NCBI GenBank assembly: GCA_023395255.1
Contig: JAEWZN010000018.1
Span: forward strand, 4,865 to 68,864
Source of the DNA: Deferribacteres bacterium
Lineage (GTDB): Bacteria > Chrysiogenota > Deferribacteres > Deferribacterales > Geovibrionaceae
DNA: 64,000 bases
Reading direction: 5' to 3'
Part shown: one piece after another, positions 1 to 55,390 of the stretch
Layout of the letters: every line of letters starts with the position of its first letter
Position numbering within the stretch: the stretch's first letter is position 1
The notes under the pieces: model-generated
Seen by the model: only the letters and a program-made list of their open reading frames with translations
The model's database searches: none
Told to the model about the DNA's origin: nothing
Translations under genes and position numbers: made by a program

Positions 1-165
1 GCGAAGCCTTGTTTTGCAAGGCGCGAGCGTGTATTCAAAATTTCCATGGACGGTAAATTTTGAATTATCAGGACAAGATGTTGCGCCGTGCGGAGCGAAG
101 CCTTGCTTTGCAAGGCGCGAGCATGTATTCAAAATTTCCATGGACGGTAAATTTTGAATTATCAG
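1..165 (+). repeat. GHE element, two tandem copies
   Basis: GHE is a name used here for a dispersed element. Reading order is hairpin C, core GCGCCGTGCGNAGCGAAG, hairpin B, core GCGCGAGCGTGT, hairpin A. This site has two copies with a 94-bp period (the core tail starts at 1 and 95); the first is cut by the window edge. Hairpin B is CCTTG/CAAGG. Hairpin A has an 11-bp stem (33-43 with 55-65; 127-137 with 149-159) and a loop containing ATGGAC. Hairpin C is not evident here. No gene is seen between 1 and 391. Confidence 0.75.
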
Positions 166-175
166 GACAAATGTA

Positions 176-252
176 TGAGATTGCTTCACTTTGTTCGCAA
201 TGACAGCAAATTATGTCACTGCGAGGAGCGGGAGCGACGCGGCAGTCTGAGT
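176..252. repeat. CATTGCGAAC-type dispersed repeat
   Basis: An imperfect inverted repeat built from a 'gagattgcttcac...gttcgcaatgac' half and a 'gtcactgcgaggagcg...gacgcggcagtctga' half. Related copies lie near 11125, 17578, 34600, 36655, 49462 and 55066. Similar short palindromic repeats are common between genes in many bacteria. No coding potential is seen. Confidence 0.6.
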
Positions 253-267
253 TTTTTGCCTTTTCAT

Positions 268-363
268 AAATCCTCCCCCGCCCTCCTTTGTCAAAGAAGA
301 GTGTTTTGCTTTTAGCCGCAACAGCTTCCCCCTTTTATAAAGGGGAACCGGAGGGGGATTTAA
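268..363. repeat. CCCCCTTT-type dispersed inverted repeat
   Basis: Contains 'cttccccctttt' followed by 'ataaaggggaaccggaggggga', an inverted repeat flanked by a 'cccccgccctcctttg' stretch. Related blocks occur at 17418-17510 and 34470-34516. It sits just past the stop codon of the minus-strand gene at 392 and could also act as a transcription stop, but there is no clean U-tract. Confidence 0.5.
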
Positions 364-391
364 GACGCTCTGGGTCATGCCCCGCGGCAAG

Positions 392-2125
392 CTAAAACTT
401 CACAACCTTCGGCGCATTTTTCGCAAACTGCGGCATTGTCATGCCGATTGTAGCGTTAATATATGTCGGGTCGGTTACTGTGTAGCGTTTGCCCTCAAAG
501 GAAACATAGTCTCCTTTCACATTGGATTTAAAAGCCACTGCCGCCGCGATATGTCCCGGATAGTCCAGAAAAACCGTATCAAGCTTAAGAAGCTGTCTCA
601 CAAGGTACGTGAACAGTATGCTCCTGTCCTCGCAGTCGGAGTACGGGTAATAGATTGTCTCCATGGCAAAAAGGAACTTCTCCCGCCCGAACTGCTGGTC
701 GTCTGTGGCGTATTTGAAGGCTGTCTGCACAAATTTCAGGATGATGTTCACCGCCTCCTCATCGCTCTTGCCTTTGATAATCGGCGCAAGCTGAGCCAGA
801 AGCGGCTTGCCTGCCCAGTCAGGAAGCCCGGCCTCTCCGTAAAGGCTCACATCTGTCTGCGGGTGGTATTTCAGGTAAACTATATCATTCATGTTATAAG
901 GAACTTTAATATTGAAAGTCTGCCCGCCGTAAGTGAAGCTCAGGCTGCGCTCTGAAACTTTCCTGCCGAGGTCGGGGTAGTCGGTCATACGGAAATCCAT
1001 AGCCCTGTCTGCCTTCGGGTAGCTTTTTTCATAGGTGTACACACTGCCCAGATTATTTATAAATCCGTCTGCGGAGACAGCGTAATATCTTTTGTCGTTA
1101 AGCGTGAAGAACGAAACTCCGTAAAGTCTGGTATTTGCCGGAACAAGGAGGTAAACGTTCTCCTTGTCATAGGCGGTTCTTGTTTCATACCCGGCTTTGC
1201 TGAGTATGAACCATGTGAGCAGAACCTTGCCGTTTCTGTCGGCTGCTATTTTACCGGAGGCCTCACTGACAAGGAGAATGAAACCCCAGTCGGTCATTTT
1301 GAGCTCTTTTCTGTATTTAAGCAGGTTATTCATCAGGGGTTCGTAGTCAGCCAGAGCAGCCTTTTCCCAGAATTCGCCCAGTTTGCTGCCGCTGAGGGGG
1401 GCTTCCGCGCCAAGCTGGAGCTTGGTATCATAGCCGACTTTTATGGGGCTGCCGAAGAAGACAAACTCAAGAGCCCTACCCTTGATCGAAGGGGGAGCAA
1501 CAACCACAGGTGCAGGAACAGGAACCGGAACAGGCTGAGGGATTACTGCCACATCAGGCTGAGGTTTCACGACCGGTACAGGCACAGGTTCAGGTTTCGG
1601 TTCAGGCTTCACGACCGGTACAGGCACAGGTTCAGGTTTTGGTTCAGGCTTCACGATCGGTACAGGCACAGGTTCGGGCTTCGGTTCAGGCTTTACGATC
1701 GGTACAGGCACAGGTTCGGGCTTCGGCTCAGGTTTCACGATCGGTACAGGCACAGGTTCGGGCTTCGGTTCAGGCTTCGCCACAGGAGCCGGGGGAGCGG
1801 GAGGAACTGGTTTTGCAGGTTCAGGAACCTCAACAGGTCTGGGAGGAGTGGGTTTCACCACCGGAATGGGAGCTTTTTCCACATGCGGCGGTGCAACGGG
1901 TATTTTGATCGGCTTCGGCTCGTCAATCTGCTTGACGGGCTCCTCGGTCTCGACCCTGATCCACATCTCTTTCAGAAATGCAGTGAATTCCTTGTCCCTT
2001 TCATCCTTAAACTGCTGGAACTCATCCATCTGCGATTTCATGTATTCTTCAAAGGTCTCAGCTTTTATAACTGAAAAAGTGGAAAACACCGTAAGAACTA
2101 TTAAGGCTGTCCTGCCGAAATGCAT
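392..2125 (-). CDS. Secreted transglutaminase-like protein with a Pro-rich repeat linker
   Basis: 577 residues. Residues 1-22 look like a signal peptide, so the product is exported. Residues 25-60 are charged and probably helical. Residues 67-212 are proline-rich and hold five copies of the 14-mer KPEPKPEPVPVPIV (residues 117-186; 42-bp DNA units at 1568-1777). The C-terminal third carries a transglutaminase-like papain-fold triad: Cys498 (SDCEDRS), His525 (PGHIAAA) and Asp552 (TDPTY). The Pro/Lys/Glu linker resembles the stiff spacer of TonB-type proteins and could hold the catalytic domain away from a membrane or the cell wall. That role is inference and the substrate is unknown. The start has AGGAGG 5 bp upstream. 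It lies downstream of greA, behind a terminator, so it is probably a separate unit. Confidence 0.8.
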   Translation of the reverse strand: MHFGRTALIVLTVFSTFSVIKAETFEEYMKSQMDEFQQFKDERDKEFTAFLKEMWIRVETEEPVKQIDEPKPIKIPVAPPHVEKAPIPVVKPTPPRPVEVPEPAKPVPPAPPAPVAKPEPKPEPVPVPIVKPEPKPEPVPVPIVKPEPKPEPVPVPIVKPEPKPEPVPVPVVKPEPKPEPVPVPVVKPQPDVAVIPQPVPVPVPAPVVVAPPSIKGRALEFVFFGSPIKVGYDTKLQLGAEAPLSGSKLGEFWEKAALADYEPLMNNLLKYRKELKMTDWGFILLVSEASGKIAADRNGKVLLTWFILSKAGYETRTAYDKENVYLLVPANTRLYGVSFFTLNDKRYYAVSADGFINNLGSVYTYEKSYPKADRAMDFRMTDYPDLGRKVSERSLSFTYGGQTFNIKVPYNMNDIVYLKYHPQTDVSLYGEAGLPDWAGKPLLAQLAPIIKGKSDEEAVNIILKFVQTAFKYATDDQQFGREKFLFAMETIYYPYSDCEDRSILFTYLVRQLLKLDTVFLDYPGHIAAAVAFKSNVKGDYVSFEGKRYTVTDPTYINATIGMTMPQFAKNAPKVVKF

Positions 2126-2218
2126 AGTTTCCTCCTGACTGGTTAAGAAACCTGAATATAAAATATATTATACAGCTAAAATAGCCCACGGGTGATAGAA
2201 AAGTACAGGTAAAAGGAA

Positions 2219-2248
2219 CAAAAAACGCTCCCGGAAAACGGGAGCGCC
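2219..2248 (-). terminator. Rho-independent terminator after greA
   Basis: The stem CGCTCCCG/CGGGAGCG (2226-2233 with 2239-2246) has a 5-base loop and is followed on the minus strand by TTTTTTG. It ends the long accA-to-greA gene run. Confidence 0.85.
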
Positions 2249-2261
2249 TGATGCTGAGAAT

Positions 2262-2735
2262 TTATTTGAAGGATATTTCGATGATTTCGTATTCGATTTC
2301 GCCGCCGGGAGCCTGAACAATAGTCTCATCGCCGACTTTTTTATTCACAAGCGCTCTGGAGAGCGGAGAGAGGATAGAAATTGTTCCGCTGCTGATGTCC
2401 GCCTCGTCCGGCCCGACTATCTTGTAGGTTTTTCTTTCTTCTGTATCAACATTTTCTACTGTTACAGTAGCGCCGAAAATAACCTTATCGGAGGAGAGTG
2501 AAGATATATCTATAACGTCAAACCTGCCGATCTTGCCTTCCAGTTCGGCTATGCGCGCTTCTATCATACCCTGCCTTTCCTTGGCGGCATCATACTCGGC
2601 GTTTTCGCTTAAGTCACCGTGGCTTCTCGCCTCGGCTATAGCTTCAACAGCTTCCTTTCTTTCAATCGTCTTGAGCCTTTCCAGCTCTTTTTTGATCTTT
2701 TGAAACCCTTCTTTTGTTATCGGGATTCTTTCCAT
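2262..2735 (-). CDS. greA: Transcription elongation factor GreA
   Basis: 157 residues, the usual GreA length. It rescues backtracked RNA polymerase by stimulating transcript cleavage. The N-terminal coiled coil (ITKEGFQKIKKELERLKT, then an Ala/Glu-rich hairpin with SHGDLSENAEYDAAK) carries the acidic tip. The C-terminal FKBP-like globule ends in the family-typical EYEIIEISFK. The start at 2735 is chosen because GGAGG lies 6 bp upstream. An upstream ATG at 2741 touches the ribosome site, and a longer reading would only add residues that belong to xseA. Its first 24 codons overlap the 3' end of xseA in another frame. Confidence 0.93.
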   Translation of the reverse strand: MERIPITKEGFQKIKKELERLKTIERKEAVEAIAEARSHGDLSENAEYDAAKERQGMIEARIAELEGKIGRFDVIDISSLSSDKVIFGATVTVENVDTEERKTYKIVGPDEADISSGTISILSPLSRALVNKKVGDETIVQAPGGEIEYEIIEISFK

Positions 2736-4077
2736 TGCCATCCTCCGAAAGTTTCCTGCCGGTGACGAAGGTGTTAATATAGCCGTCATTGAATCTAATT
2801 TCAAGTTCATCTTCGAGATGGACGTCTTTTGCCTTCCTGACCAACCTGTTGTTTATGCTTACCAGCGCATAGCCTCTTTCCAGAGCCTTTTCGGGGCTGA
2901 CCCCGCCGAGCCTCGCGCTGAGGAGCTCAAGTTTCTGTTTATTTTCCTTTAATGCGTCCAGCGAGAGAGTTTTAAGCATCCTCAACGCGCTGTCCGTTCT
3001 GTTTTTCATTCTTTCCAGCCGTATGCCCGGATGGTGTTTTCTTATCACCCCGGCGCAGGTGTCCAGCTTTCTGGAAACGCCGAAAAGCCTTTCCTTCATC
3101 TTCGAGGTTATTTTCTGCTCACGCGCACCCAGCATATTCTTAAGAGAGGCTATCTTTGCCGCAGGGGAAGAAGCTCCCAGCCTGCGCCCCAGAAAGTCCA
3201 TCCGCTGATTTAAGCGGTTGAGCCTGTTCTCCATGAATGAGCCGAGCCTGCCCTGATAAACCGCAATCTCTTTTTCTCTGACAGCGTAGCCCTCAGAAAG
3301 TTTGACCGCTGCCGCGGTGGGTGTGGCGACCCTCAGATCCGCCGTGAAGTCGCATATGGAGAAATCTCTCTCATGCCCGACAGCGGAAATGCAGGGAACC
3401 TTCGTCGCCGCAACTGCCCTGGCTACGTTCTCCTCGCTGAAAACAGCCAAGTCCTCAAGCGAGCCGCCGCCGCGCATAAGCACAACTGCATCATAGACCT
3501 GCGTGAGGCTTCCCGCCGTGTTCAGCGCCTTAATAATAGGCAGCGCCGCTTCCTTGCCCTGCACAGGTACAGGCCATATATCAATCACAAACCTGCCGCC
3601 GGTCTTTTTTGCGGTGGTTATAAAATCCGTAACAGCCGCACCCGTGGGTGAGGTTATAAGAGCTATGCGCTCCGGCAGTTCGGGAATATTTTTTTTGCGG
3701 GCTTCGTCAAAAAGCCCTTCTGCCTCAAGCCTGCGCTTGGTTTCCTCAAACTTCTGCCAGAAGAGCCCCACGGAGTCGTACTCAATCTTCCGGGCGATGA
3801 TCTGGTATGCCCCGTCAGATTCGTAGAGCTTAAGCTCCCCGGTCACCTCAACGGAATCTCCGTTTTTGGGCGTGTATGAGCGGGCGGACACGGCGGCGTT
3901 TTTGAACATAGCCACCCTGATCTTCGCCTTGTCGTCTTTCAGTGAAAAATACAGATGCCCTCTGGGTGAAACAGAAAAACCTGTTATCTCCCCGCTGATG
4001 GTGACTGTGTCCCTGAAAGTGCCCTCAAGCAGATTTTTAATTGCTTCGGTTATCTCCGTTACTGTGAACCGCTTCAT
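2662..4077 (-). CDS. xseA: Exodeoxyribonuclease VII large subunit
   Basis: 471 residues. Large catalytic subunit of the nuclease that degrades single-stranded DNA from both ends. Residues 1-100 form the OB fold (VTISGEITGFSVSPRGHLYF). The central catalytic part includes ALITSPTGAAVTDF, MRGGGSLEDLAVF and SAVGHERDFSICDFTADLRV. A long coiled coil follows (about 260-400), then a beta segment with ALERGYALVS. The last 23 or so residues are a charged tail encoded on top of greA. No small subunit gene (xseB) is adjacent. It overlaps the 3' end of the ftsB-like gene by 41 bp, so translation is probably coupled. Confidence 0.93.
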   Translation of the reverse strand: MKRFTVTEITEAIKNLLEGTFRDTVTISGEITGFSVSPRGHLYFSLKDDKAKIRVAMFKNAAVSARSYTPKNGDSVEVTGELKLYESDGAYQIIARKIEYDSVGLFWQKFEETKRRLEAEGLFDEARKKNIPELPERIALITSPTGAAVTDFITTAKKTGGRFVIDIWPVPVQGKEAALPIIKALNTAGSLTQVYDAVVLMRGGGSLEDLAVFSEENVARAVAATKVPCISAVGHERDFSICDFTADLRVATPTAAAVKLSEGYAVREKEIAVYQGRLGSFMENRLNRLNQRMDFLGRRLGASSPAAKIASLKNMLGAREQKITSKMKERLFGVSRKLDTCAGVIRKHHPGIRLERMKNRTDSALRMLKTLSLDALKENKQKLELLSARLGGVSPEKALERGYALVSINNRLVRKAKDVHLEDELEIRFNDGYINTFVTGRKLSEDGNGKNPDNKRRVSKDQKRAGKAQDD

Positions 4078-4339
4078 TGCCTATAATATAAATGTCCTCA
4101 TCCGGTGAGCGCATGTTAAGCTCCTTTCTGATGAGAAGCTCCAGATATTCCTTATCTTTTTTTATTGCTTCAAGCTCTTTCTGAAGGCTCCTGATCTTGG
4201 AATCCATCTCCATAATCTGAGCTTCATAAGTGTTTTTGAGCCCCACGAGCTCCCTGTATTTCAGCACGCCGTTGTGGCCGAAAAAAAGGTAAAGCACAAG
4301 TCCCGCTATCAGTGCAAAGTAAATTAAGCCTGCTTTCAT
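4037..4339 (-). CDS. ftsB: FtsB/DivIC-type septum formation initiator
   Basis: 100 residues. Small bitopic cell-division protein with a short cytoplasmic start, one membrane span (about residues 4-21), then a leucine-zipper-like coiled coil (about 28-72) with the family motif KELEAIKKDKEYLELLIRKEL. Such proteins form the FtsQ/FtsB/FtsL-type complex at the septum. The start is set by the ATGA overlap (4336-4339) with the upstream gene and by the membrane span, which begins almost at once. The family is clear; the symbol rests on domain layout rather than on synteny. Confidence 0.8.
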   Translation of the reverse strand: MKAGLIYFALIAGLVLYLFFGHNGVLKYRELVGLKNTYEAQIMEMDSKIRSLQKELEAIKKDKEYLELLIRKELNMRSPDEDIYIIGNEAVHSNGDNRSN

Positions 4340-5247
4340 GGTTTTTTCGCCTTCTGCTCCACAATTCTCGCCGCAGCCTGTCTCAGTGTGGCGGGTACTT
4401 CCTTTGAACGGGAAATATACTCGACATCCTGAAACATAAGCCTGCCCACCAGCCCCATTGTTATATCCAGAGGGGTTTTGGGGTTTCTGACTATGGCGCT
4501 GATGATAGTATAACTTTTCATCCATTCCTTGTTCAAGGCAACTTCGCGGAAAATATGCTCCGACGTGCTTTTGTTTTTCACAAGGAACTCAACCTCTTCC
4601 TCGGTCATTCTGGGATTGCGCATAACGGCAGATGAAATCTGCTTGTTAGGACTGCGAACCAGCAGCCCGCGCGCCTGTTTGTTCCCTTTGGAGGCAAGTT
4701 TTATCTTCTGGGCAATGCTCATTTTCTGAATCTGCCCGTAGAGGTTTTCCTCAAGCTCTTTTTTGGTCTCAAAATCCGGCTGCCAGCCGGATATGCCCGT
4801 CACTCTCGCCGCTGTATTATCGCTGAGAAACGGGTTTTTCAAAAGAAGCACCGCCAGAGACGGTTCATCCACCAGAATATCAGCATCCGCCAAATTCTCC
4901 AGAATCTCTTCCTCCGCGGACTGGGCAAATGCAGTGAAAATATCCGTCCGCAGACCCTTGTTCGTCGCAGCAGCCGCGAAAAACTCCGGCGAATTTTTCA
5001 TCATCCGGCAAAGGAAAATGAACAGATCACCGCTGAGTGAAGGCTCCGTGCAGAGCGCTCCGTAGAGATCCGCTCTGTCCTTAAGCCATTCAAACATAGG
5101 CTTTGCAAGGGTTCTCCGCTTCTCCAGAACGCACTTCACCCACAGAGGCTCGTCCCCTGCGGGTACTCGGTTTTCCGCAAAAATTATTGATGCAGTGCCG
5201 TCATCCGTTTCCGAAGTGAGAAACGAAGAAGTGGAAATCTCCATCAT
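4336..5247 (-). CDS. Helical-repeat protein of unknown function
   Basis: About 303 residues, soluble, no signal peptide. The sequence is mostly alpha-helical with imperfect leucine-rich or HEAT-like units, for example RGLLVRSPNKQISSAVMRNP followed by RMTEEEVEFLVKNKS, and later IISAIVRNPKTPLDITMGLV. The recurring '(V/L)xRNPxx(T/I)' phrase resembles bacterial leucine-rich-repeat-variant proteins. No catalytic motif is seen. It sits between DUF4416 and the ftsB-like gene with overlapping or short junctions, so it is co-transcribed. Two ATGs in tandem (5247 and 5244) follow an AGAGGG site; the second has the better spacing. Confidence 0.65.
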   Translation of the reverse strand: MMEISTSSFLTSETDDGTASIIFAENRVPAGDEPLWVKCVLEKRRTLAKPMFEWLKDRADLYGALCTEPSLSGDLFIFLCRMMKNSPEFFAAAATNKGLRTDIFTAFAQSAEEEILENLADADILVDEPSLAVLLLKNPFLSDNTAARVTGISGWQPDFETKKELEENLYGQIQKMSIAQKIKLASKGNKQARGLLVRSPNKQISSAVMRNPRMTEEEVEFLVKNKSTSEHIFREVALNKEWMKSYTIISAIVRNPKTPLDITMGLVGRLMFQDVEYISRSKEVPATLRQAAARIVEQKAKKP

Positions 5248-5266
5248 GCCCTCTGCCGCAATATAT

Positions 5267-5812: not shown

Positions 5813-6036
5813 CAGGCCATTTCAATTTCGTCGATTTCCTCGGAAGGCTCGATAGTTGACACTGCGTGTTTGTAGATCATTTTCTGGGAATCGTCCTTCA
5901 AAATGATCACAAAGTTGTCGAACCCCTTTATAAGTCCTTCTATCTTGACTCCGTTAACCAAATAAATAGTCACAGCGATGCGTCTTTTCCTGATATGGTT
6001 AAGAAAAACATCCTGAATGTTGACTTTTTTGCTCAT
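5812..6036 (-). CDS. hfq: RNA chaperone Hfq
   Basis: 74 residues. Ring-forming Sm-like protein that pairs small RNAs with mRNAs. The Sm1 motif spans residues 7-45 ([20 protein letters not shown], then [12 protein letters not shown]) and Sm2 follows with [10 protein letters not shown]. The YKHA of the RNA-binding pore is intact. The C-terminal tail is short and acidic ([12 protein letters not shown]). It lies downstream of miaA, the same miaA-hfq order known from proteobacteria. A GGGGG ribosome site lies 4 bp before the start. Confidence 0.95.
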
Positions 6037-6096
6037 AATACCCCCAGGAGTAATAATAACGTTAATTCACAAGTATAAGTCAGGGTTAATTTTTTT

Positions 6097-10917: not shown

Positions 10918-11105
10918 ACAAAAATCCCGCATCCTGCGGGATTTTTGTACACGCTCGCGGTTTGCAAAGCAAACCTTCGCTACGCACGGCGCATTGTCTT
11001 GCCTTAATAATCCAAAATTTACCATCCATGGAAATTTTGGATACACGCTCGCGGTTTGCAAAGCAAACCTTCGCTACGCACGGCGCAACTCCATCCTTGG
11101 AGTTG
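10918..11105 (-). repeat. GHE element, two tandem copies
   Basis: Read on the minus strand. The copy next to the lipoprotein gene has hairpin A with stem AAAAATCCCGC (10920-10946), loop AGGAT and a following T-run, so it can also work as a terminator for transcription arriving from the glycosyltransferase. The other copy has hairpin A at 11010-11042 (loop ATGGAT), hairpin B GGTTTGC/GCAAACC (11053-11069) and hairpin C CAACTCC/GGAGTTG (11086-11105, loop AAGGAT). The cores are intact in both. This fills most of the 440-bp gap between the two genes. Confidence 0.8.
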
Positions 11106-17661: not shown

Positions 17662-17753
17662 CAATTCCATGGATGGAATTGCGCCGTGCGAAGTGAAGCC
17701 GAACCGAGTTCGGCGCGAATGTGTGAGCAGCAGGACAGGATGTACCTGCCTGC
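17662..17753 (+). repeat. GHE element, complete copy in front of purD
   Basis: Hairpin C CAATTCC/GGAATTG (17662-17681, loop ATGGAT), core, hairpin B GCCGAA/TTCGGC (17698-17714), core, hairpin A GCAGCAGG/CCTGC+CTGC (17727-17753, loop ACAGGATGTA). It is in the sense orientation, and hairpin A ends 26 bp before the purD start. If purD is transcribed from upstream, the GGA loops are in its 5' leader; a second GGA lies in the purD ribosome site. Confidence 0.8.
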
Positions 17754-17779
17754 GAACTATCATCAGATAAGGATTAGCA

Positions 17780-19066
17780 ATGAAAATACTTGTTGTAGGC
17801 AGCGGGGGCAGGGAACACGCCCTCGCATGGAAACTGGCTCAGAATCCAAAGGTTGAGGAAATCTTCGTTGCTCCCGGCAACGGCGGAACCGCTCTGGAGA
17901 ACAAAGTTACCAACATCCGCATAAAAGCCACCGACCTTAAGGAGCTTGCGGATTTTGCAAAAACAAATAACGTGGCACTCACCGTTGTCGGCCCGGAAGA
18001 TCCCCTCGCCGCAGGCATAGTGGACTACTTTCAGGAACGCGGGCTGCGCGTCTTCGGCCCATGCAAGGCAGCAGCACAGATTGAGGCAAGCAAAGCCTTC
18101 GCAAAGGAGATGATGGTTGCGGCGGGAATACCCACAGCATTTTACAGGGAGTTCACCGATTTTGAAGCGGCGAACACCTATGTGCATGAGAAAGGCGCAC
18201 CCATCGTTATAAAAGCGGACGGACTGGCTGCAGGCAAAGGTGTTACAGTTGCCTTCACTGCGAAGGAAGCGGAAGCCGCACTGAAAGAGATCTTCATAGA
18301 CAATATCTTCGGCGAGGCCGGAAACAGAGTGGTGGTTGAGGAATTCCTCAACGGAGAGGAAGCCTCGTACCTTGCTTTTTCCGACGGGGAAACTGTGCTG
18401 CCCATGGTTTCAAGTCAGGATCACAAGGCTGTTTACGACGATGACAAAGGCCCCAATACAGGCGGAATGGGCGCTTACTCCCCCGCACCCGTGGTTACGG
18501 ATGAAATATTCGATTTCGCAACGCAGAAAATAGCCTACCCCCTGATAAACGAGTTTAAAAAGCGCGGCATAAAATATGTCGGCATAATTTACGCAGGGCT
18601 GATGATCACAGCAGACGGCGTAAAGGTGCTTGAGTTCAACGCCCGCTTCGGCGACCCGGAGACTCAGCCGGTGCTGACAAGGCTCAATTCCGACCTGCTT
18701 GAAATTTTCGAGGCATGCATAGACGGTAGGCTTAAGGAAATCAGCGCAGACTGGAGTACAGAGCCCGCTGTGTGCGTTGTCATGGCCTCAGGCGGCTACC
18801 CCAAAGACTATGAAAAAGGCTATGAGATAAACGGCATAGCAGATGCAGATAAAATCAAAGGCGTAAAGGTATTCCACGCGGGAACCGCAACTGTGGATAA
18901 AACAACCGTAAACACCGGAGGACGCGTTCTGGGAGTTACCGCAAGGGGAAAAGACCTTGAGGAAACCATAGAGCGTGCCTACGAAGCGGTGAAAAAAATA
19001 TACTGGACAAACGCCCACTTCCGTAAAGACATCGGAGCTAAGGCGCTCAGGAGGCTTAAGAAATGA
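17780..19066 (+). CDS. purD: Phosphoribosylamine--glycine ligase
   Basis: 428 residues. ATP-grasp enzyme that makes glycinamide ribonucleotide in the second step of purine synthesis. Motifs: VVGSGGREHALAWKLAQNPK at the start, GPEDPLAAGIVD, IKADGLAAGKGV (ATP-grasp), VVEEFLNGEEASYLAFSDG, DDDKGPNTGGMGAYSPAP and EFNARFGDPETQ. Start set by TAAGGATT upstream. purE follows with a 4-bp overlap. A GHE element lies directly upstream. Confidence 0.97.
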   Translation: MKILVVGSGGREHALAWKLAQNPKVEEIFVAPGNGGTALENKVTNIRIKATDLKELADFAKTNNVALTVVGPEDPLAAGIVDYFQERGLRVFGPCKAAAQIEASKAFAKEMMVAAGIPTAFYREFTDFEAANTYVHEKGAPIVIKADGLAAGKGVTVAFTAKEAEAALKEIFIDNIFGEAGNRVVVEEFLNGEEASYLAFSDGETVLPMVSSQDHKAVYDDDKGPNTGGMGAYSPAPVVTDEIFDFATQKIAYPLINEFKKRGIKYVGIIYAGLMITADGVKVLEFNARFGDPETQPVLTRLNSDLLEIFEACIDGRLKEISADWSTEPAVCVVMASGGYPKDYEKGYEINGIADADKIKGVKVFHAGTATVDKTTVNTGGRVLGVTARGKDLEETIERAYEAVKKIYWTNAHFRKDIGAKALRRLKK

Positions 19067-23014: not shown

Positions 23015-23152
23015 AATCCGCACATCCTGTCGGATTAAGATACACGCTCGCGCCATGAAAAACCCGCCGCTTAGTTTCGGCGTGGTTTCTGCACCGAGCT
23101 TGCTTAAAAACCCGGCTTCTCTGCGCACGGCGCAGTTCCGTCCATGGAACTG
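23015..23152 (-). repeat. GHE element with an enlarged B arm
   Basis: Minus-strand reading: hairpin C CAGTTCC/GGAACTG (23133-23152, loop ATGGAC), core, an enlarged B segment of about 60 bp with its own 'cccgccgc...gcggcg'-type pairing, core, hairpin A AATCCG/CGGATT (23015-23036, loop ACAGGATGTG). It fills the gap between trmFO and xerC, in the sense orientation for xerC. Confidence 0.75.
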
Positions 23153-34359: not shown

Positions 34360-34433
34360 ATTGCTCCGATTCGCTCCACGGACACCTCCATGTGTCTGTT
34401 GCTACGCACGGCGCAGTTCCATCCTTGGAACTG
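34360..34433 (-). repeat. GHE element, partial copy
   Basis: Minus-strand reading: hairpin C CAGTTCC/GGAACTG (34414-34433, loop AAGGAT), core GCGCCGTGCGTAGC, a short B hairpin GACAC/GTGTC. The second core and hairpin A are degenerate, passing into the structured stretch to the left. Confidence 0.6.
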
Positions 34434-34666: not shown

Positions 34667-34756
34667 AAAAACTACATCCTGTGTTTTTTACACACACGCT
34701 CGCGCCGTGGTAAACACGGCTTCGCTTCGCACGGCGCAGTTCCATCCTTGGAACTG
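34667..34756 (-). repeat. GHE element, complete copy
   Basis: Minus-strand reading: hairpin C CAGTTCC/GGAACTG (34737-34756, loop AAGGAT), core, hairpin B GCCGTG/CACGGC with loop, core, hairpin A AAAAAC/GTTTTT (34667-34688, loop ACAGGATGTA). It lies just past the uvrC stop, in the 3' region of that transcript. Confidence 0.8.
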
Positions 34757-42662: not shown

Positions 42663-43213
42663 TTTATCCCCCTTGCGAAATTTATGAAATTAGTGACCAT
42701 TTTCGCGCCCTCTTCACTGCGCACGGACTCAGGATGAAACTGAACGCCGAAGAGCATTTTTTCCTTATCTTCCATAGCCATAACCTCGCCGTCGCTTTTT
42801 GCTCTGGCTGTCACGAGATGATCCGCACCTTTTACGGCAAGGGAGTGGTAGCGCACAGCGTCAAACTCGTTTATCCCTTCGAAAATAACGCTTTTCTCCG
42901 CCTTCACCCTGTCTATCTTTCCGTGCATAACAGACTTCGCCCTGCCCACCTCATAACCCAGATGATAGCCTATCGCCTGCATTCCGAGGCAGACACCGAA
43001 GATCGGTTTTTTTCCTGCGTATTCTTTAAGGTAGTGCAGGCTTGTGCCTGAGTTTGCGGGGTGCGAAGGGCCGGGGGATATTATAATCCCTTCGTATTTA
43101 TCGGCATTAACCGTTTCGTTATTCTTTATAAGCTCAACCTCCGCGCCGTTCAGTCTGAACAGGGCATACAGGTTGTATGTGAATGAATCGTAGTTATCAA
43201 CGAGCAAAAACAT
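42659..43213 (-). CDS. trpG: Anthranilate synthase glutamine amidotransferase subunit
   Basis: 184 residues. Supplies ammonia to TrpE. LLVDNYDSFTYNLYALF at the start, IISPGPSHPANSG, GVCLGMQAIGYHLG with the nucleophile Cys, HGKIDRV, RYHSLAVKG and GVQFHPESVRSEEG with catalytic His and Glu. Starts 17 bp inside trpE. Confidence 0.96.
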   Translation of the reverse strand: MFLLVDNYDSFTYNLYALFRLNGAEVELIKNNETVNADKYEGIIISPGPSHPANSGTSLHYLKEYAGKKPIFGVCLGMQAIGYHLGYEVGRAKSVMHGKIDRVKAEKSVIFEGINEFDAVRYHSLAVKGADHLVTARAKSDGEVMAMEDKEKMLFGVQFHPESVRSEEGAKMVTNFINFARGIK

Positions 43214-44775: not shown

Positions 44776-44904
44776 GACTGCACAGGATGTCGGCAGTCGG
44801 ACTATAAAACGGCTCCACGGATGGAGCCGCGCCGTGCGAAGCGAAGACGCATTCACTGCGGCGCGAGCGTGTGTCCTGACTGCACAGGATGTGGCAGTCA
44901 GGAC
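44776..44904 (+). repeat. GHE element inside the trp leader region
   Basis: Plus-strand reading: an extra A-like hairpin GACTGC/GCAGTC (44776-44798, loop ACAGGATGTCG), hairpin C CGGCTCC/GGAGCCG (44810-44829, loop ACGGAT), core, hairpin B around 44846-44860, core, hairpin A GTCCTGACTGC/GCAGTCAGGAC (44873-44904, loop ACAGGATGTG). It lies between the second terminator and trpE and is antisense to the trp transcript, lengthening the leader by about 130 bp. Confidence 0.8.
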
Positions 44905-47018: not shown

Positions 47019-47022
47019 AATT

Positions 47023-48168: not shown

Positions 48169-48169
48169 A

Positions 48170-48331: not shown

Positions 48332-48333
48332 CG

Positions 48334-49103: not shown

Positions 49104-49119
49104 GACTTGCCTCCTTGAT

Positions 49120-49425
49120 CTGATAATAAAAATCCGTACATCCTGTCGGATTTTTATACACGCTCGCGCCGTGGTAAACACGGCTTCGCTGCGCACGGCG
49201 TCGGCACTTCCTGTGCCTCATTCACCTGAGACCTGATAATAAAAATCCGCACATCCTGTCGGATTTTTATACACGCTCGCGCCGTGGTAAACACGGCTTC
49301 GCTGCGCACGGCATCGGCACTTCCTGTGCCTCATTCACCTGAGACTTGATAATAAAAATCCGCACATCCTGTCGGATTTTTATACACGCTCGCGCCGTGA
49401 TAAACACGGCTTCGCTGCGCACGCC
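49120..49425 (-). repeat. Three GHE elements in a 113-bp tandem array
   Basis: Units start at 49120, 49233 and 49346, nearly identical; the third is cut short. Each has hairpin A AAAAATCCG/CGGATTTTT (first at 49128-49155, minus loop ACAGGATGTA), hairpin B GCCGTG/CACGGC. The first two units also have hairpin C GGCAC/GTGCC (first at 49203-49217, minus loop AGGAA). Sense orientation for the cytochrome gene at 49103. No gene is seen here. Confidence 0.85.
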
Positions 49426-49461
49426 AAATTAGCGAGACCGCCGCGCCGCTGAAGCTCCCCG

Positions 49462-49565: not shown

Positions 49566-49641
49566 TGCGCCGTTTCCCTTCACACACATGGTTCAGGAGC
49601 ATCACAGAAGCGGCTGTCGCTCATACCTAATTTTATCACAG

Positions 49642-50334: not shown

Positions 50335-50903
50335 CTGAAAAACCTCTCCACATATTCAGTGGCTTCCGCCGCCAGAGATTCCGACTCAAGGCGCATGGTC
50401 ACTTCATCATTATAATTAAACGCGCTGTAAGTGTAGTTATGGCTGCCGGAATAGACTATCCGCCCGTCAATAACTGTCATTTTTGTATGAAGGCGCTTTT
50501 TCGGGCTGTCGTAAATAACAACCGCACCGGCCCCAGCCAGTGCTGCGCCTGTTTCCCTGTTTGCCTTAGTGAGAAAGGATTTTTCATCCTCCTCAACATC
50601 AAACACCACCCTGACCTTCACGCCTCTTTTGGCGGCATTTTCAAGGGAAAGGAGCAAAAGCTCCGTATCGGCGGGCTTGTCCCTGTCCGCTTTGAACATA
50701 TAAATTGTCATGTCTATTGAGCGTTCCGCGGAAGTAATATCTTCAATCAGCGGCACGATGAGCCTTTTTCCGTCCAGAAAGGCAACCTCCGCCGTGTGCG
50801 TGTTCAGACGCGCGGAAAGGTTGGAATATACGAAAAAGACTATAAAAACAAATGCGATTAATAGTTTAAAGACCCGCGACCGAGCGGAGCGCTTCCCAGA
50901 CAT
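50331..50903 (-). CDS. Phospholipase D-like protein, single HKD motif
   Basis: About 190 residues. Short basic N-terminus, one membrane span or uncleaved signal (about 12-30), then a PLD-type domain with IEDITSAERSIDMTIYMF and the HKD motif HTKMTVIDGRIVYSGSHNYT. One HKD means it should work as a dimer, like Nuc-type nucleases. It may be a membrane-bound or periplasmic nuclease; lipid activity is possible. Start chosen at 50903 because the longer frame lies inside engB. Confidence 0.78.
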   Translation of the reverse strand: MSGKRSARSRVFKLLIAFVFIVFFVYSNLSARLNTHTAEVAFLDGKRLIVPLIEDITSAERSIDMTIYMFKADRDKPADTELLLLSLENAAKRGVKVRVVFDVEEDEKSFLTKANRETGAALAGAGAVVIYDSPKKRLHTKMTVIDGRIVYSGSHNYTYSAFNYNDEVTMRLESESLAAEATEYVERFFR

Positions 50904-51441
50904 TATCTTTACCGTGTCCCGTAAGAGACGAGTAAAGAAAGAAATGTTCCTTATCAATTCCCACTTCCTCTGCAATAAGGCGAACCTGTTTTGCAATCTG
51001 ATTGTTTGAAAGTTTATCTGTTTTTGTGAGTATCACCAAAGTGTGGGTTTCCGTCTCGGAAAGCCAGCTCAGCATGTCCATATCCTCTTCGGACGGGAGG
51101 CGACGTATGTCCAGAATCAGCACACATGCTTTCAGGTTGTCCCTTTTGGTGAGATAAGTCTCTATACACTTTGCCCACGATGCCCTTTCCGACTTGGAGA
51201 CGGCGGCAAAGCCGTATCCGGGCAGATCCACAAACATTATTTCATTATCAATATTGAAAAAATTAAGCGTTCTGGTCTTGCCTGGTTTGGCGCTGACCTT
51301 AACCAGCTTTTTACGTCCGAGAAGCGAGTTTATCATGGACGATTTGCCCACATTGCTTCGCCCCACAAAGGCTATTTCCGGCAACGCGCTTTCGGGGTAG
51401 TCCTTCTCGAATACTGCCGATTTCACAAATTCCGCCTTCAC
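50866..51441 (-). CDS. engB: Ribosome biogenesis GTPase EngB/YsxC
   Basis: 191 residues. GTPase needed for large-subunit assembly. G1 GRSNVGKSSMIN, G2 PGKTRTLNFF, G3 VDLPGYGFA, G4 LTKTDKLS, G5 near YSSLTGHG. Overlaps the DHH gene by 4 bp and the PLD gene by 38 bp. Confidence 0.94.
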   Translation of the reverse strand: MKAEFVKSAVFEKDYPESALPEIAFVGRSNVGKSSMINSLLGRKKLVKVSAKPGKTRTLNFFNIDNEIMFVDLPGYGFAAVSKSERASWAKCIETYLTKRDNLKACVLILDIRRLPSEEDMDMLSWLSETETHTLVILTKTDKLSNNQIAKQVRLIAEEVGIDKEHFFLYSSLTGHGKDNVWEALRSVAGL

Positions 51442-52283
51442 TCAAAAACCCCCATGTCACGGAGCAGACACTTCATGCCGAAGCCGAACTCCACACTGAA
51501 TCCCGCTGCGTTCTTATGTCCGCCGCCGCCGTTTCTCACTGCGATTTCAGCCACATCAACCTCCGGGATTGAGCGCAGCGAGACTTTCTTCTTCTGAGCA
51601 TTGACTATCACCACGTAATCCACGCCGAGTTCATTTGTGATGTAGTTGCCCACTTCGGAGTTGTATTCCTCGCAGAAAACGGCATATGCGCTGCGCCCCT
51701 GCGTATCCGTAAACTGAAAGCCGGACTTGGCGGAGTTGCGGATATATCTGTCGCGCCTGTCTTCTTCTATTTCGATAATGAGCGATTCGCTCTCGCCGAA
51801 TTCGGCGGAGGGCACGGCGAGAAACCTTGCCTCGAACCTGTCTATACCCAGCTTCATAAAGAGGATGTTCATCTGGAGACTGTCAGTACGTTTCATGTGC
51901 CACATGTCAAAGTCATTCACGCAGTCCACAAAGTCCGCATATGGGGAAACATCATACCCCTGCGCCTCAAGCCATTCGTAGGTGAGCTTTGTGGCTGATT
52001 TCGTGGTGTCATGCACCACACCGTGGTTCCCCTTGAGCCATGAGGATGTGGGGTGATGGTCTATGAAGGTTATTTCCGTTTCGCCCAGCACGCTCTCATA
52101 AGCCCTTTTGGAGGGGGAAACATCCGTGATAATCACGCCGTCATAGCCGCCGCTCTCTTCCTCAAGCGCCTGATCAACATCATTATAGTTGAGGTACAGC
52201 GTGTTCACGTTTTTCAGGTATTTCTTGATCAGTATGCCGCAGCCTACCCCGTCAAGATCGTTGTGTGATATATGAAGATGCAA
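51438..52283 (-). CDS. DHH-family phosphoesterase
   Basis: 281 residues. Manganese-type phosphoesterase fold: HISHNDLDGVGCGIL (first Asp pair), GVIITDVSPSKRAY, FIDHHPTSSWL (DHH) and CVNDFDMWH. The DHHA1 end has RNGGGGHKNAAGFSVEF. It resembles small oligoribonuclease or pAp phosphatase (NrnA) proteins, but the substrate cannot be read. Cytoplasmic. Confidence 0.85.
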   Translation of the reverse strand: MHLHISHNDLDGVGCGILIKKYLKNVNTLYLNYNDVDQALEEESGGYDGVIITDVSPSKRAYESVLGETEITFIDHHPTSSWLKGNHGVVHDTTKSATKLTYEWLEAQGYDVSPYADFVDCVNDFDMWHMKRTDSLQMNILFMKLGIDRFEARFLAVPSAEFGESESLIIEIEEDRRDRYIRNSAKSGFQFTDTQGRSAYAVFCEEYNSEVGNYITNELGVDYVVIVNAQKKKVSLRSIPEVDVAEIAVRNGGGGHKNAAGFSVEFGFGMKCLLRDMGVFE

Positions 52284-52306
52284 AATACACTCCTTGTTTT
52301 AATTAT

Positions 52307-52330
52307 CAAAACCGGCATTGAAGGCCGGAC
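52307..52330 (-). terminator. Terminator after yjbQ
   Basis: Stem CCGGC/GCCGG (52312-52316 with 52324-52328) followed by TTTTG on the minus strand. A short stem; moderate support. Confidence 0.45.
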
Positions 52331-52339
52331 TTTCAGGCA

Positions 52340-52759
52340 TTACTCGCCTATTATTTTCACAAGCACCCGCTTACGCCGTCTGCCGTCAAACTCGCCGTAG
52401 AATATCTGTTCCCAAGTGCCGAAGTCAAGCCTCCCTTCGGTAACGGCGACAACAACCTCCCTGCCCATTATCTGGCGCTTGTGGTGTGCGTCCCCGTTGT
52501 CCTCCCCTGTGAGGTTGTGTCTGTAGCGGGTGAGCGGTTCATGGGGCGCGAGTTCCTCCAGCCATTTTGCGTAATCGGTGAGAAGCCCGTCCTCATCGTC
52601 ATTTATAAAAACAGAGGCTGTTATGTGCATGGCATTAACCAGACACAGCCCCTCCTGTATGCCGCTTTCAGCCAGAGCCCTCTCCACATCACGGGTGATG
52701 TTTATGAACTCCATGCGCTTTGTGGTGTTAAAGAAAAGCTCTCTGCGGAATGATTTCAA
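52340..52759 (-). CDS. yjbQ: YjbQ/UPF0047 family protein
   Basis: 139 residues. Family signatures [19 protein letters not shown] (variant of the H-T-(S/A)-A motif), [20 protein letters not shown] and [19 protein letters not shown]. The family has weak thiamine phosphate synthase activity in some members; the true role is not settled. Ends the run that begins with trpB2. Confidence 0.88.
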
Positions 52760-52761
52760 GT

Positions 52762-52974
52762 TTATCTCCTGAAAAAAATATTCAGAATAACAGTGAGGAC
52801 AATGCTCACTATGATGGAGGTAACTATAGGGAAATGAAAGGAAAAGTTCTTCCCTTTAAAGGCTATGTCACCGGGCAGGCGACCGAGGCCGAACTTCCCA
52901 CCCACAGTGAATATCACTCCTGCTATAACAATGACAATGCCCGTAATAATCAGCATTCTGCCAATTCCGCCCAT
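52762..52974 (-). CDS. DUF2905 family small membrane protein
   Basis: 70 residues, two membrane spans (about 5-25 and 48-67) joined by [20 protein letters not shown], the DUF2905 hallmark with GRLPGD. Function unknown. Fits exactly between queH and yjbQ (0-2 bp gaps). Confidence 0.85.
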
Positions 52975-53541
52975 CTAAAGTCCCTCTTTCAGTCCGGCGA
53001 ATTTCTTAGCCAGCCGCCCCTTGAAGGCACCCTCTTCACTGTATATGCAGCCGCAGTATTTCTGGCGATACATCTCAAGACGCTTTGATTCGTCTATGCC
53101 GTGCTGCCAGCCTTCCCGCCAGTCTTCATAGTGAAACGGCACGCCATATTTCTTCGCTGCCGCCTCGCACATTTCGATAATAAGTTCATGCTTCTGGTAT
53201 CTGCTGTAAAGCAGTGTGGTGGAGAAGCAGTCAAATCCCTTCTCCGCCGCAGTCTGCGCCGCTTTCTCCATACGTGATGAATAGCAGTATGCGCAGCGCA
53301 TATTCTCACGGTAGGCGGCGTTTCTTGCGAAATCCGTCAGGCCGTAAGTATCATCCGCAATCATTTCAATCCCCTGTGCCCTGTTGAACAGGACAGCCTG
53401 CTCAAAGCGGGCATAAAGCTCCGTGAGCGGGTGTATGTTCGGGTTGAAAAAATATGCGCATATATCGTGCCCGCCCTCTTTCAGTTCCCTTACGGGATAA
53501 ACCGAACAGGGGGCGCAGCACTGATGAAGGAGTATTCTCAT
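52975..53541 (-). CDS. queH: Epoxyqueuosine reductase QueH
   Basis: 188 residues. Last step of queuosine synthesis; the iron-sulfur type that replaces QueG. Cysteine motifs LLHQCCAPCSVYPV, CAYCYSSRMEK and QKYCGCIYSEEG are present. Its start overlaps the trpB2 stop by 4 bp. Confidence 0.9.
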   Translation of the reverse strand: MRILLHQCCAPCSVYPVRELKEGGHDICAYFFNPNIHPLTELYARFEQAVLFNRAQGIEMIADDTYGLTDFARNAAYRENMRCAYCYSSRMEKAAQTAAEKGFDCFSTTLLYSRYQKHELIIEMCEAAAKKYGVPFHYEDWREGWQHGIDESKRLEMYRQKYCGCIYSEEGAFKGRLAKKFAGLKEGL

Positions 53542-54893
53542 TTCACTTCCGGCAGATGTTTCAGAGATTCTGCAATCGCCGCTTCGGGGTATGCGTAGTC
53601 CTCAAGCTTGCCGTCGGTGAACGCCTCATATGACATCATGTCGAAATGTCCGTGTCCGCTGAGGCAGAAAAGCAGGGTTTTGGCCTCTCCGCTCTCTTTG
53701 CATTTCAGGGCTTCCTTGATTGTGGCGGCTATGGCATGGGAGGATTCCGGAGCAGGAACCACACCCTCTTCCTTCGCGAACATAAGCGCGCTGTTGAAAA
53801 CCTCAAGCTGGGGAACGCTCTGCGCTGTGATAAGCCCCTGATTGTAAAGCGCGCTCACCAGAGGAGACTCCCCGTGATAACGCAGACCGCCGGAGTGGAT
53901 CGCGGGCGGCTCAAAGTCATGTCCGAGGGTGTACATCTGCATAATGGGCGTAAGCTTCGCCACATCGCCGTAATCGTAGGTGTAGATGCCTTTGGTCAGC
54001 GTGGGACAGCTTGCGGGCTCCACGGCAACGGCCGTGACGTTTTTGCCGTTCATTTTATCCAGAACAAAGGGGAAGGCTATTCCCGCAAAGTTCGAGCCGC
54101 CGCCGCATGATGCGAATATCATGTCAGGATAAGCGCCGATCTTGGCAAACTGCTTCTGCGCCTCAAGACCAATTACGGTCTGATGAAGGCAGACATGGTT
54201 GAGCACGGAGCCGAGGGCATAGTTAGTGTCCTTGCGTCCTGCCGCTTCCTCCACAGCCTCGCTTATGGCAAGACCCAGACTTCCCGGCATATCGGGATTT
54301 CGTTTCAGAGCTTCACGCCCTGCGTTTGTGAGTTCAGACGGACTGGGGAAAATCTCAGCGCCGAACATTTTCATAAAGGCTTTTCTGTAGGGTTTCTGGA
54401 AGTAGCTGACCTTAACCATGTAAACCCTGCACTCCATGCCGAACTGTGCGCAGGAGAAGCTGAGCGCACTGCCCCACTGTCCTGCTCCTGTTTCGGTGGT
54501 GAGCCTTTTTATTCCCGCCTCTTTGTTGTAGTAGGCCTGAGCCACGGCAGTATTTGTCTTATGACTGCCTGCGGGGGAAAGCCCTTCGTATTTATAATAT
54601 ATTTTTGCTGGTGTACCGAGGGCTTTTTCCAGTCTTCTCGCCCTTATAAGGGGCGACGGCCGCCACAGGGATATTATTTCGCGAACCTCATCGGGGATGT
54701 CGATCCATCTTTTATCTGTCATTTCCTGCTCAAGCAGAGCAGGGGGAAAAATCGCAAGAAGCTCTTCGGGCGCAACAGGCTTGCCCGTTGCGGGGCTTAT
54801 TGGGGGTGCGGGAAGCTTAGGCATATCCGCCATAATGTTGTACCACTGCTTGGGAACTTCGCTTTTATCCAGATACACTCTGTCTTTATCCAT
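53538..54893 (-). CDS. TrpB2-type tryptophan synthase beta homologue
   Basis: 451 residues, longer than TrpB1. PLP lysine in YYKYEGLSPAGSHKTNTAVA, then ETGAGQWGSALSFSCAQFGM, SCGGGSNFAGIAFP and LSGHGHFDMM. These match the TrpB2 family, which can make Trp from indole and serine without TrpA and is common as a second copy. It lies outside the trp operon, at the head of trpB2-queH-DUF2905-yjbQ. No Trp attenuator is seen upstream. It may salvage indole. Confidence 0.9.
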   Translation of the reverse strand: MDKDRVYLDKSEVPKQWYNIMADMPKLPAPPISPATGKPVAPEELLAIFPPALLEQEMTDKRWIDIPDEVREIISLWRPSPLIRARRLEKALGTPAKIYYKYEGLSPAGSHKTNTAVAQAYYNKEAGIKRLTTETGAGQWGSALSFSCAQFGMECRVYMVKVSYFQKPYRKAFMKMFGAEIFPSPSELTNAGREALKRNPDMPGSLGLAISEAVEEAAGRKDTNYALGSVLNHVCLHQTVIGLEAQKQFAKIGAYPDMIFASCGGGSNFAGIAFPFVLDKMNGKNVTAVAVEPASCPTLTKGIYTYDYGDVAKLTPIMQMYTLGHDFEPPAIHSGGLRYHGESPLVSALYNQGLITAQSVPQLEVFNSALMFAKEEGVVPAPESSHAIAATIKEALKCKESGEAKTLLFCLSGHGHFDMMSYEAFTDGKLEDYAYPEAAIAESLKHLPEVK

Positions 54894-55065
54894 GATTGTT
54901 ACGCCCTCCGTAAAAACTGATATACCCGCTCATTTTAGGTGAACTTAAACGAGTTTTCAATATATTATAGGTAAAACGGTAAAGGCGGCATAAAATGGTA
55001 TCGGGAATCCTGCCGCACATAGAAAATCGCTGCTCCGCAAGGTGCTGACCATGAGAAAAAACAAT

Positions 55066-55190
55066 TGTCATTCTGAGGCAGAGCCGAAGAATCCCTGACT
55101 TTTGAGACTGCTTCGTCATTTTACTCCTCGCAGTGACTTATTGATAACGTCATTGCGAACCCTGAAAGGGTGAAGCAATCTCAGGCTTCC
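55066..55190. repeat. CATTGCGAAC-type dispersed repeats, two variants
   Basis: 'gtcattctgaggcagagccgaagaatccctga' then 'cagtgacttattgataacgtcattgcgaaccctgaaagggtgaagcaatctc', quoted only as landmarks at 55069 and 55150-55185. The rest of 54894-55065 is AT-rich and should carry the trpB2 promoter. Confidence 0.55.
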
Positions 55191-55251
55191 CCTGCAAGAT
55201 ACGGGAACCGCAGGACGTAGTTTTTACCGTAATAAACCAAAGGAGGAACAA

Positions 55252-55365
55252 ATGGCAAAAATAGCATTAATCCTTGCAGACGGATTTGAAGAGATAGAGG
55301 CACTGGATGTGCCGACGCCGTGCGCAGCGAAGCCGTGTTTAACACGGCGCGAGTGTACACGGTAA
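55252..55365 (+). pseudogene. Truncated 5' copy of the DJ-1 family gene
   Basis: Begins MAKIALILADGFEEIEALDV, the same as the intact gene but for Thr2 to Ala and the last residues, then runs into GHE sequence and stops after 37 codons. It keeps a good ribosome site, so a short peptide could be made, but no domain remains. Arose by duplication of the gene start. Confidence 0.85.
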
Positions 55366-55390
55366 AAACACAGGACGTAGTTTTTACCGT
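55316..55390 (+). repeat. GHE element within the duplication
   Basis: Core GCCGTGCGCAGCGAAG, hairpin B GCCGTG/CACGGC, core GCGCGAGTGTAC, hairpin A ACGGTAAAAAC/GTTTTTACCGT (55359-55390, loop ACAGGACGTA). Hairpin C is missing; the broken reading frame joins the core at 55316. A degraded hairpin A lies before the first copy (55201-55230). Confidence 0.8.

Follow-up and report, generated by a model that had tools for sequence, protein, structure and literature searches.

The 64 kb stretch of a Deferribacteres bacterium genome analysed here (hereafter the window; 49% G+C) contains a dispersed, non-coding element of about 100 bases, which on the strand of its conserved cores is made up, in order, of hairpin C, core 1, hairpin B, core 2, and hairpin A. 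An element with this arrangement had been claimed in an earlier reading of the letters alone (the sequence-only reading), and it is borne out by a covariance model of the C-core-B-core part, which finds 13 places in the window, one of them truncated by the window start; the stem sequences given in that reading for hairpins C and A are likewise present as described. Searches with the cores return 13 matches for core 1 (at most three mismatches) and 10 for core 2 (at most one mismatch), compared to 0.30 and 0.35, respectively, expected from shuffles. One core-1-like match, on the minus strand near position 42711, was rejected as a chance match within a coding region. The copies, and a direct repeat that adjoins one of them, are located as follows.

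1..32, plus strand: element copy truncated by the window start (hairpin B and core 2; covariance model positions 32-63, E 1e-8)
33..65, plus strand: hairpin A of the window-start copy, loop ATGGAC (direct reading)
74..126, plus strand: second array copy, with degenerate C, core 1, B, and core 2 (covariance model, E 2e-13)
127..159, plus strand: hairpin A of the second array copy, loop ATGGAC (direct reading)
10949..11012, minus strand: tandem second copy with degenerate C; hairpin A (loop AGGAT) at about 10918-10948 (covariance model)
11043..11105, minus strand: element with C at 11086-11105 (loop AAGGAT), core 1, B, and core 2 (covariance model, E 4e-22)
17662..17724, plus strand: element 5' of the gene at 17780, with ATGGAT as the C loop; hairpin A spans about 17725-17755, and 42 nt separate its GGA from the ATG (covariance model)
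23042..23152, minus strand: element with about 48 additional bases within hairpin B, which are absent from the related genomes G001 and G003 (covariance model)
34369..34433, minus strand: degenerate copy with C intact (loop AAGGAT) (covariance model)
34694..34756, minus strand: element in a convergent gap, the top covariance-model match in the window (89.9 bits)
44810..44872, plus strand: element, C loop ACGGAT; hairpin A, with loop AGGAT, at about 44873-44904 (covariance model)
49158..49430, minus strand: three-copy tandem array of period 113, in which C is of the GGCAC-AGGAA-GTGCC type in two copies; the final GGA lies 40 nt before a start codon (covariance model)
55211..55298, plus strand: 88-base direct repeat, upstream copy, holding the start of the downstream gene
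55297..55358, plus strand: element with C loop TGGAT; hairpin A extends to about 55392 (loop AGGAC), with 39 nt between its GGA and the ATG at 55412 (covariance model)
55371..55458, plus strand: 88-base direct repeat, downstream copy, 160 bases further on

Hairpin C has a 7 bp stem and a loop of the form ANGGAN closed by a C-G pair, the most frequent loop sequences being CATGGATG, CATGGAAG, and CAAGGATG. Core 1 is a mini-hairpin of 3 bp, CGC-CGT-GCG, with compensated changes in two copies, followed by N-AGCGAAG, and core 2 is CGCGAGCGTGT; the hairpin B that lies between them has a covarying 5 bp stem and a variable loop. Hairpin A consists of a loop AGGAY or ANGGAN (chiefly C-AGGAT-G, then C-ATGGAT-G and C-AGGAC-G), two base pairs, a one-base 3' bulge, and then a long stem; the bulge, which may be any base, is present in 120 of 145 distinct hairpins when each is fitted in the best of four registers. 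Hairpins C and A thus both have the form of a CsrA site, that is, GGA in an ANGGAN or AGGAN hairpin loop closed by C-G. In the copy at 23042-23152, the longest frame of the downstream open reading frame begins inside the element.

Constraint on the GGA loops

Among 187 copies with both cores, a set from which 14 copies lacking core 2 and those too close to the ends of loci are excluded, a GGA hairpin is present at C in 149 and at A in 151, and at neither position does any copy carry a better hairpin with TCC in its place; 118 of the copies have both GGA hairpins. The bare motif is similarly one-sided, with 138 occurrences on the core strand and 4 on the opposite strand at C, and 164 and 0 at A. 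The claim in the sequence-only reading that GGA loops are held in the element is therefore upheld with regard to strand (149:0 and 151:0) but was too broad for hairpin C, which is not intact everywhere.

Orthologous copies show what is held within the loops. In 46 comparisons of the 3'-most hairpin A, which have four genomes in common and are non-independent, and for which the query had to contain the motif, the three GGA bases changed 0, 0, and 0 times, whereas changes were seen at the next (last) loop base in 18 of 46 and at 64 of 368 positions of the 5' arm. Stems of hairpin A are even wholly replaced between orthologues, yet the GGA is retained. For hairpin C, the second G and the A changed in 0 of 30 comparisons, and the loop positions outside the GGA in 7, 9, and 7. 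No loop is held fixed in hairpin B, which has the same turnover. This constraint is stronger evidence than the covariation of the stems and, as judged from these comparisons, the GGA is the part of the element under selection.

Distribution among related genomes

The closest of the compared genomes, G001, has 45% of the 31-letter words of the window in common. Occurrences of core 1 with no more than one mismatch number 131 in G001, 105 in G002, and 295 in G003, which are three species of one genus of the Deferribacterales, 2 in G008, from another genus of the same family, and 0 in the remaining 17 relatives searched. When 50 genomes of the phylum were searched with the covariance model, six had matches, namely G001-G003 (at least 107 each), G008 (6), and G004 and G046, whose matches are single and weak. 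By eye, the G046 match has a different core, yet GGA loops in both outer hairpins, and because of this the layout of the element may predate core 1.

Several of these more distant matches deserve separate description. The other-core relative in G046, which represents another family of the order, lies at 1150-1600 of locus L133, with a second, degenerate copy just 5' that apparently has extra sequence within its hairpins. At 1501-1720 of locus L134 (G004), GGA hairpins with loops AAGGAT and AGGAT surround an unrelated core, and core 1 is not found in that genus. In G008, a copy (L013/L146) stands between two genes that we take to be pta and ackA, a plausible CsrA-regulated carbon pathway. A search of viral_contigs for the element gave 0 matches. 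In genome_contigs, from which the records nearest the window's genome were perhaps excluded, 36 of 37 stretches came from one assembly, LUZY01; a Variovorax match (L057) was put aside as chance, with no further test. Among the titles and opening parts of abstracts returned by searches of open-licence PubMed Central (PMC) papers, none describes such an element.

Covariation of the stems

Alignment A1 comprises 74 copies, at most one per cluster, drawn from 78 that a filter had let through, which required the GGA at its position, 5 or more of the 7 C pairs, and 4 or more of the 5 B pairs; four were dropped by hand, and one G008 copy was admitted without the filter. Because of the pairing filter and the hand removal, A1 is biased towards pairing. 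In this alignment, 98.6% of 1110 cells are paired, compared to 74.7% after shuffling, and the changes comprise 257 two-sided and 5 one-sided changes, with 16 cells unpaired, so that the covariation on which the sequence-only reading had staked itself is massive. When the pairing filter is lifted, each of the seven C positions is paired in 66-81 of 91 sequences anchored on GGA, which are a subset of 136 distinct stretches, against shuffled means of 38-64 at six of these; the near-invariant closing pair gives zero gain over the shuffle (77 vs 76). For hairpin A, where the best-pairing register was picked for each hairpin and retained in the shuffles, 1243 of 1305 cells are Watson-Crick (shuffled maximum 772), 19 are G-U, and 43 are other.

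First copies from 59 orthologous locus pairs show how these stems change. Hairpin C, in register in 30 pairs, has 27 two-sided Watson-Crick changes, 3 to G-U, 17 breaking, and 4 other, and hairpin B, in register in 44, has 90 two-sided Watson-Crick changes, 3 to G-U, 8 breaking, and 3 other. The window and G001 are 95-98% identical around the locus before 17780, and the B stems there are wholly different between the same rare core variants.

Fixed loops with compensating stems had been taken in the sequence-only reading as the mark of RNA selection, which is insufficient alone, because DNA template switching also makes two-sided Watson-Crick changes; excerpts of PMC8794818 describe how it creates and maintains perfect hairpins. 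The covariation therefore indicates that the hairpins matter to the element or to its copying, and does not imply the RNA level. It is on this ground that the copies might be a plain selfish repeat of the repetitive extragenic palindromic (REP) or miniature inverted-repeat transposable element (MITE) type, with stems produced by template switching in replication, no RNA function, and the GGA present by descent. The dominance of two-sided changes in A1, the excess of Watson-Crick over G-U changes among orthologues, and the orientation to the replication fork described below all agree with such an origin. Descent, however, fails to explain why the GGA is kept in 46 of 46 comparisons while the adjacent loop base varies and the stems are replaced, and it leaves the strict strand and the sense bias unexplained. 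We consider this explanation improbable.

CsrA, FliW and flagellin leaders

The csrA gene (PF02599) is present in 17 of 21 relatives and FliW in 10 of 14 relatives tested, the latter including G046 and both including G001-G003, which are close relatives of the window's organism; the look-up of both genes proposed in the sequence-only reading thus had a positive outcome. CsrA of G003 retains L4 and R44, so that the RNA-contact residues are intact, in a numbering that starts at the second Met.

We read 24 flagellin loci, a subset of the flagellin matches, and 20 of them have a GGA hairpin by a strict test (a perfect stem of at least four pairs). In 18 of these 20, the loop begins 32-63 nt upstream of the start codon adopted, the true start in a few loci perhaps being an ATG 6 bases earlier; in the other two (L278 and L273), the hairpin is at the Shine-Dalgarno sequence, with L273 adding an upstream one if G-U pairs are allowed. 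Of the loci blank in the strict test, L256 and L279 have, by eye, a GGA hairpin whose stem is shorter or interrupted, L269 yielded no start, and a GGA hairpin is absent from the flagellin leader of L274, which comes from a genome without a csrA match (G016). Within the genus rich in the element, the leader hairpins of L257 and L276 (G001), L259 (G002), and L275 (G003) bear caggcAGGGAAgcctg, gcgcAAGGAAgcgc (twice), and cggcAAGGATgccg. The flagellin hairpin and hairpin C of the element are identical in having the loop A-N-GGA-N, a closing C-G pair, and free stems. The CsrA-site interpretation offered in the sequence-only reading is therefore supported in part: it holds for the loop consensus, which passed the tests applied and equals that of the flagellin leaders, a known type of CsrA target and an independent check beyond those suggested in that reading, and binding by CsrA is predicted. 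Many flagellin leaders (e.g. L259, L263, L266, L272, and L276) also have a conserved line, CCTCTATTGAAA(G/A)AATCAAGGAGGAT, between the GGA hairpin and the start, which may pair or be bound.

Excerpts of PMC7652899 provide the biochemical frame for this comparison: CsrB repeats read CAGGA(U/A/C)G; the consensus from systematic evolution of ligands by exponential enrichment (SELEX) is RUACARGGAUGU; RsmE complexes contain an ANGGAN hexaloop; and the CsrA dimer bridges two sites, in E. coli reportedly over 10-63 nt.

Orientation and genomic context

Both neighbouring genes, predicted by a custom script, are known for 105 of 115 clusters of copies. Sixty clusters are sense and 16 antisense in codirectional gaps, 24 are convergent, and 5 are divergent (p 4e-7 and 6e-6), compared to 203 codirectional, 84 divergent, and 46 convergent background gaps of at least 120 bp in the same DNA. 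The G001 and G002 stretches were selected for holding copies; the unselected part, that is, the window and systematic samples of G003, has 16 sense and 5 antisense clusters.

In 18 of the 56 sense clusters, a few of them being one locus in two genomes, the last GGA, that of hairpin A, precedes the predicted start by 36-46 nt, and 16 of the 19 sense clusters with a GGA at 30-50 nt have a further GGA in the Shine-Dalgarno stretch. Many copies also lie close behind stop codons. This last position, together with the convergent gaps, would suit a transcription terminator or a module of mRNA-stability hairpins; a T-rich tail, however, follows only 14 of 145 distinct A hairpins, copies right before the starts of operon genes would lower expression, and a terminator does not require a fixed GGA. 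We regard such a function as very improbable.

Orientation also follows the replication fork. In 73 clusters of G003, some of them chosen by model score and at least one (L123) a retained chance match in coding sequence, fork-directed genes have 31 sense and 5 antisense clusters and fork-opposed genes 7 and 6, with convergent clusters 15 along and 6 against the fork, and divergent ones 2 and 1. A logistic fit gives independent effects of gene sense (p 0.01) and fork (p 0.0012), assuming an origin near 0 and a terminus near 1.65 Mb from sampled GC skew.

Mobility

Flanking direct repeats scoring at least 21 are found at 17 of 108 clusters, G008 contributing two, and at 0 of 324 shuffled pairs, a few of the 17 being array units or another repeat family (L099 and L113). 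The listed repeats are 15-88 bases long, and by eye about half of those outside arrays start with GA after the 3' end of the element. One clean empty-site pair was obtained: 43 bases that are single at L107 (G001) are doubled around the insert at L093 (G003). At L093 the 5' arm of the outermost GGA hairpin is, by eye, target DNA, and it is seemingly target-derived also at window position 55297, L071, and L102. The element is on both sides in 116 of 153 orthologous comparisons, those listed among the rest including some misplaced pairs. The element is transposable by general criteria, having a flanking target duplication and an empty orthologous site, and the long flanking direct repeats, together with the transcription and fork bias, imply that it is or was mobile.

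Candidate movers were sought in the same genomes. The Y1/REP-associated tyrosine transposase (RAYT) family (PF01797) has 0 matches in G001, G002, and G003, and a RAYT or IS200-type mover was rejected for these three genomes; the mobile character proposed in the sequence-only reading is supported by the duplications and the empty site, and its REP-like label fits only loosely, as the expected enzyme is missing from G001-G003 and the duplications are long. The junctions suggested target-primed insertion like that of long or short interspersed nuclear elements; reverse transcriptase (PF00078) is absent from G001 and G003, with 1 match in G002, and this candidate was also dropped.

Subterminal hairpins serve as recognition sites for IS200/IS605 and RAYT enzymes, and the GGA hairpins at the ends of the element could likewise be single-strand DNA sites for an unknown transposase, their likeness to CsrA sites being coincidental. 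Such a role would account for the common loop of C and A at both ends, which the middle hairpin B does not have; a fork bias independent of gene sense fits insertion at the fork, and stems that are almost only Watson-Crick are as expected of DNA hairpins. On the other side stand the lack of PF01797 matches in G001-G003, the position-by-position equality of the loops with the host's own flagellin-leader hairpin, and the gene-sense bias that persists beside the fork bias. Flanking duplications, moreover, are not known as a feature of IS200/IS605 elements. We think this role unlikely, if somewhat less so than a selfish repeat without RNA function.

Two side observations concern the surroundings of the copies. 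Within 55211-55458, a duplicate of the beginning of the gene at 55412 lies 5' of the element and brings a Shine-Dalgarno sequence and an ATG of its own, which creates a second but truncated reading start; G003 shares this arrangement, and G002 has only a short gap with neither feature. Between element copies at window positions 173-250 and 55060-55182 there is also a second dispersed repeat (GAGATTGCTTCA...CGCAATGACG, with partner GCGAGGAGCG...GACGCGGCAGTCT), which occurs in many G003 arrays (e.g. L080, L094, and L096), in some of them repeated together with the element.

A predicted CsrA operator and sponge

The explanation that we favor, and consider probable, is that this is a mobile or formerly mobile element whose RNA carries two CsrA-type hairpins and acts as a predicted CsrA operator or sponge. 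It draws on what is observed of the copies and their structure, strand, GGA constraint, orientation, and flanking repeats, on csrA and fliW in the relatives, and on the identity with the flagellin loop. Hairpins C and A would be kept 68 nt apart (GGA to GGA; quartiles 68-69, n=118 copies with both sites) by the two cores and the spacer hairpin B, and sense transcription of the host operon or untranslated region (UTR) would allow CsrA to bind the GGA loops. A hairpin A about 40 nt before a start would reproduce the flagellin-leader layout (one GGA in a hairpin and one in the Shine-Dalgarno sequence), and from this layout CsrA should repress the gene concerned; copies in 3' UTRs, convergent gaps, and tandem arrays would be CsrA sponges alongside FliW. 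Transcription of the copies, CsrA binding, repression or titration, and the way in which the element moves are the predicted steps of this scheme. Apart from the spacing, the features that can be tested in sequence agree with a genus-level dispersed element that resembles a portable, predicted double CsrA site.

Several observations weigh against a CsrA function. A GGA hairpin at C is lacking in 38 of 187 copies, and the first G of the GGA of hairpin C changed in 5 of 30 orthologous comparisons. The C-A spacing is just beyond the bridging range given in the excerpts of PMC7652899, unless hairpin B and the mini-hairpin shorten the distance, and the stems exceed those of most SELEX ligands described there in length and in perfection of pairing. 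Near-pure Watson-Crick covariation without G-U intermediates may result from template switching no less than from RNA selection, and the fork bias points to a DNA-level process. The peak at 36-46 nt may merely be tight packing against genes, because copies also adjoin stop codons. Relatives with csrA but few copies have no clear excess of GGA hairpins in the approximately 80-110 kb sampled from each, so that CsrA does not generally call for such hairpins. Finally, G019 has flagellin hairpins and no csrA or fliW match; the sequence beside its flgL reads N. The comparison of csrA-positive with csrA-negative relatives as a natural experiment was dropped, as a clear enrichment of GGA hairpins is confined to genomes with abundant copies of the element; this comparison is therefore uninformative on CsrA, and the absence of csrA from G019 is unsafe.

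More tentatively, and with slightly less than even confidence, we suggest that hundreds of ready-made CsrA operators have spread through the genus as portable flagellin-leader switches, which would bring new genes under CsrA-FliW control and form a dispersed sponge, the stems being rewritten by template switching, in part from the target at the 5' junction, and the GGA kept by selection. Transposable elements of eukaryotes are known to spread DNA operators; a repeat that spreads operators of an RNA-binding regulator would, if this suggestion is correct, be the bacterial counterpart and would allow a direct test of how post-transcriptional networks grow. It would also mean that in FliW-type bacteria a sponge can be scattered over untranslated regions and need not be one small RNA (sRNA) gene. 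Because the loops and stems of one hairpin behave differently, the element is in addition a clean case for separating RNA-structure selection from template switching.

Comparison with known systems

The element resembles REP sequences, their REPIN arrangements, and the associated RAYT systems, as described in excerpts of PMC3733652 and PMC6006769, in being short, extragenic, palindromic, and present in many copies and in arrays. It differs in having three free-stem hairpins, a transcription-sense bias, and long flanking duplications, and no RAYT was found in G001-G003. Across 74 copies, no GTAG or CGTC tag is conserved at the foot of a hairpin, GTAG occurring a few bases 5' of hairpin B only in copies with T as the free base N of core 1. 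By the defining features tested, the element is not REP/RAYT. MITE-like repeats such as bcr1 and BOX are similarly structured, dispersed, non-autonomous, and about 100 bases long; unlike these, the element has fixed GGA loops and no terminal inverted repeats of fixed sequence.

With the sponge RNAs CsrB, CsrC, RsmY, and RsmZ, the element shares several GGA hairpins per RNA, mostly in its tandem arrays, which would titrate CsrA; it consists, however, of scattered intergenic copies and not one sRNA gene, the relatives possess FliW, and a search of the window against Rfam at gathering score matched no family, the CsrB/RsmZ type included. The flaA mRNA leader of Campylobacter jejuni, according to excerpts of PMC4894983, contains two ANGGA hairpins and titrates CsrA in an organism with FliW, and it is alike in its ANGGA-hairpin leader; flaA is a single gene, whereas the element is repeated. 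The closest likeness in form is to the CsrA/RsmA hairpins of the glgC, hag, and hcnA leaders, which have the same ANGGAN or AGGAY loop, C-G closing pair, free stem, and two sites per RNA, some sites lying beside the Shine-Dalgarno sequence; what sets the element apart from these leaders is that it is a dispersed repeat with conserved cores and hundreds of sites per genome.

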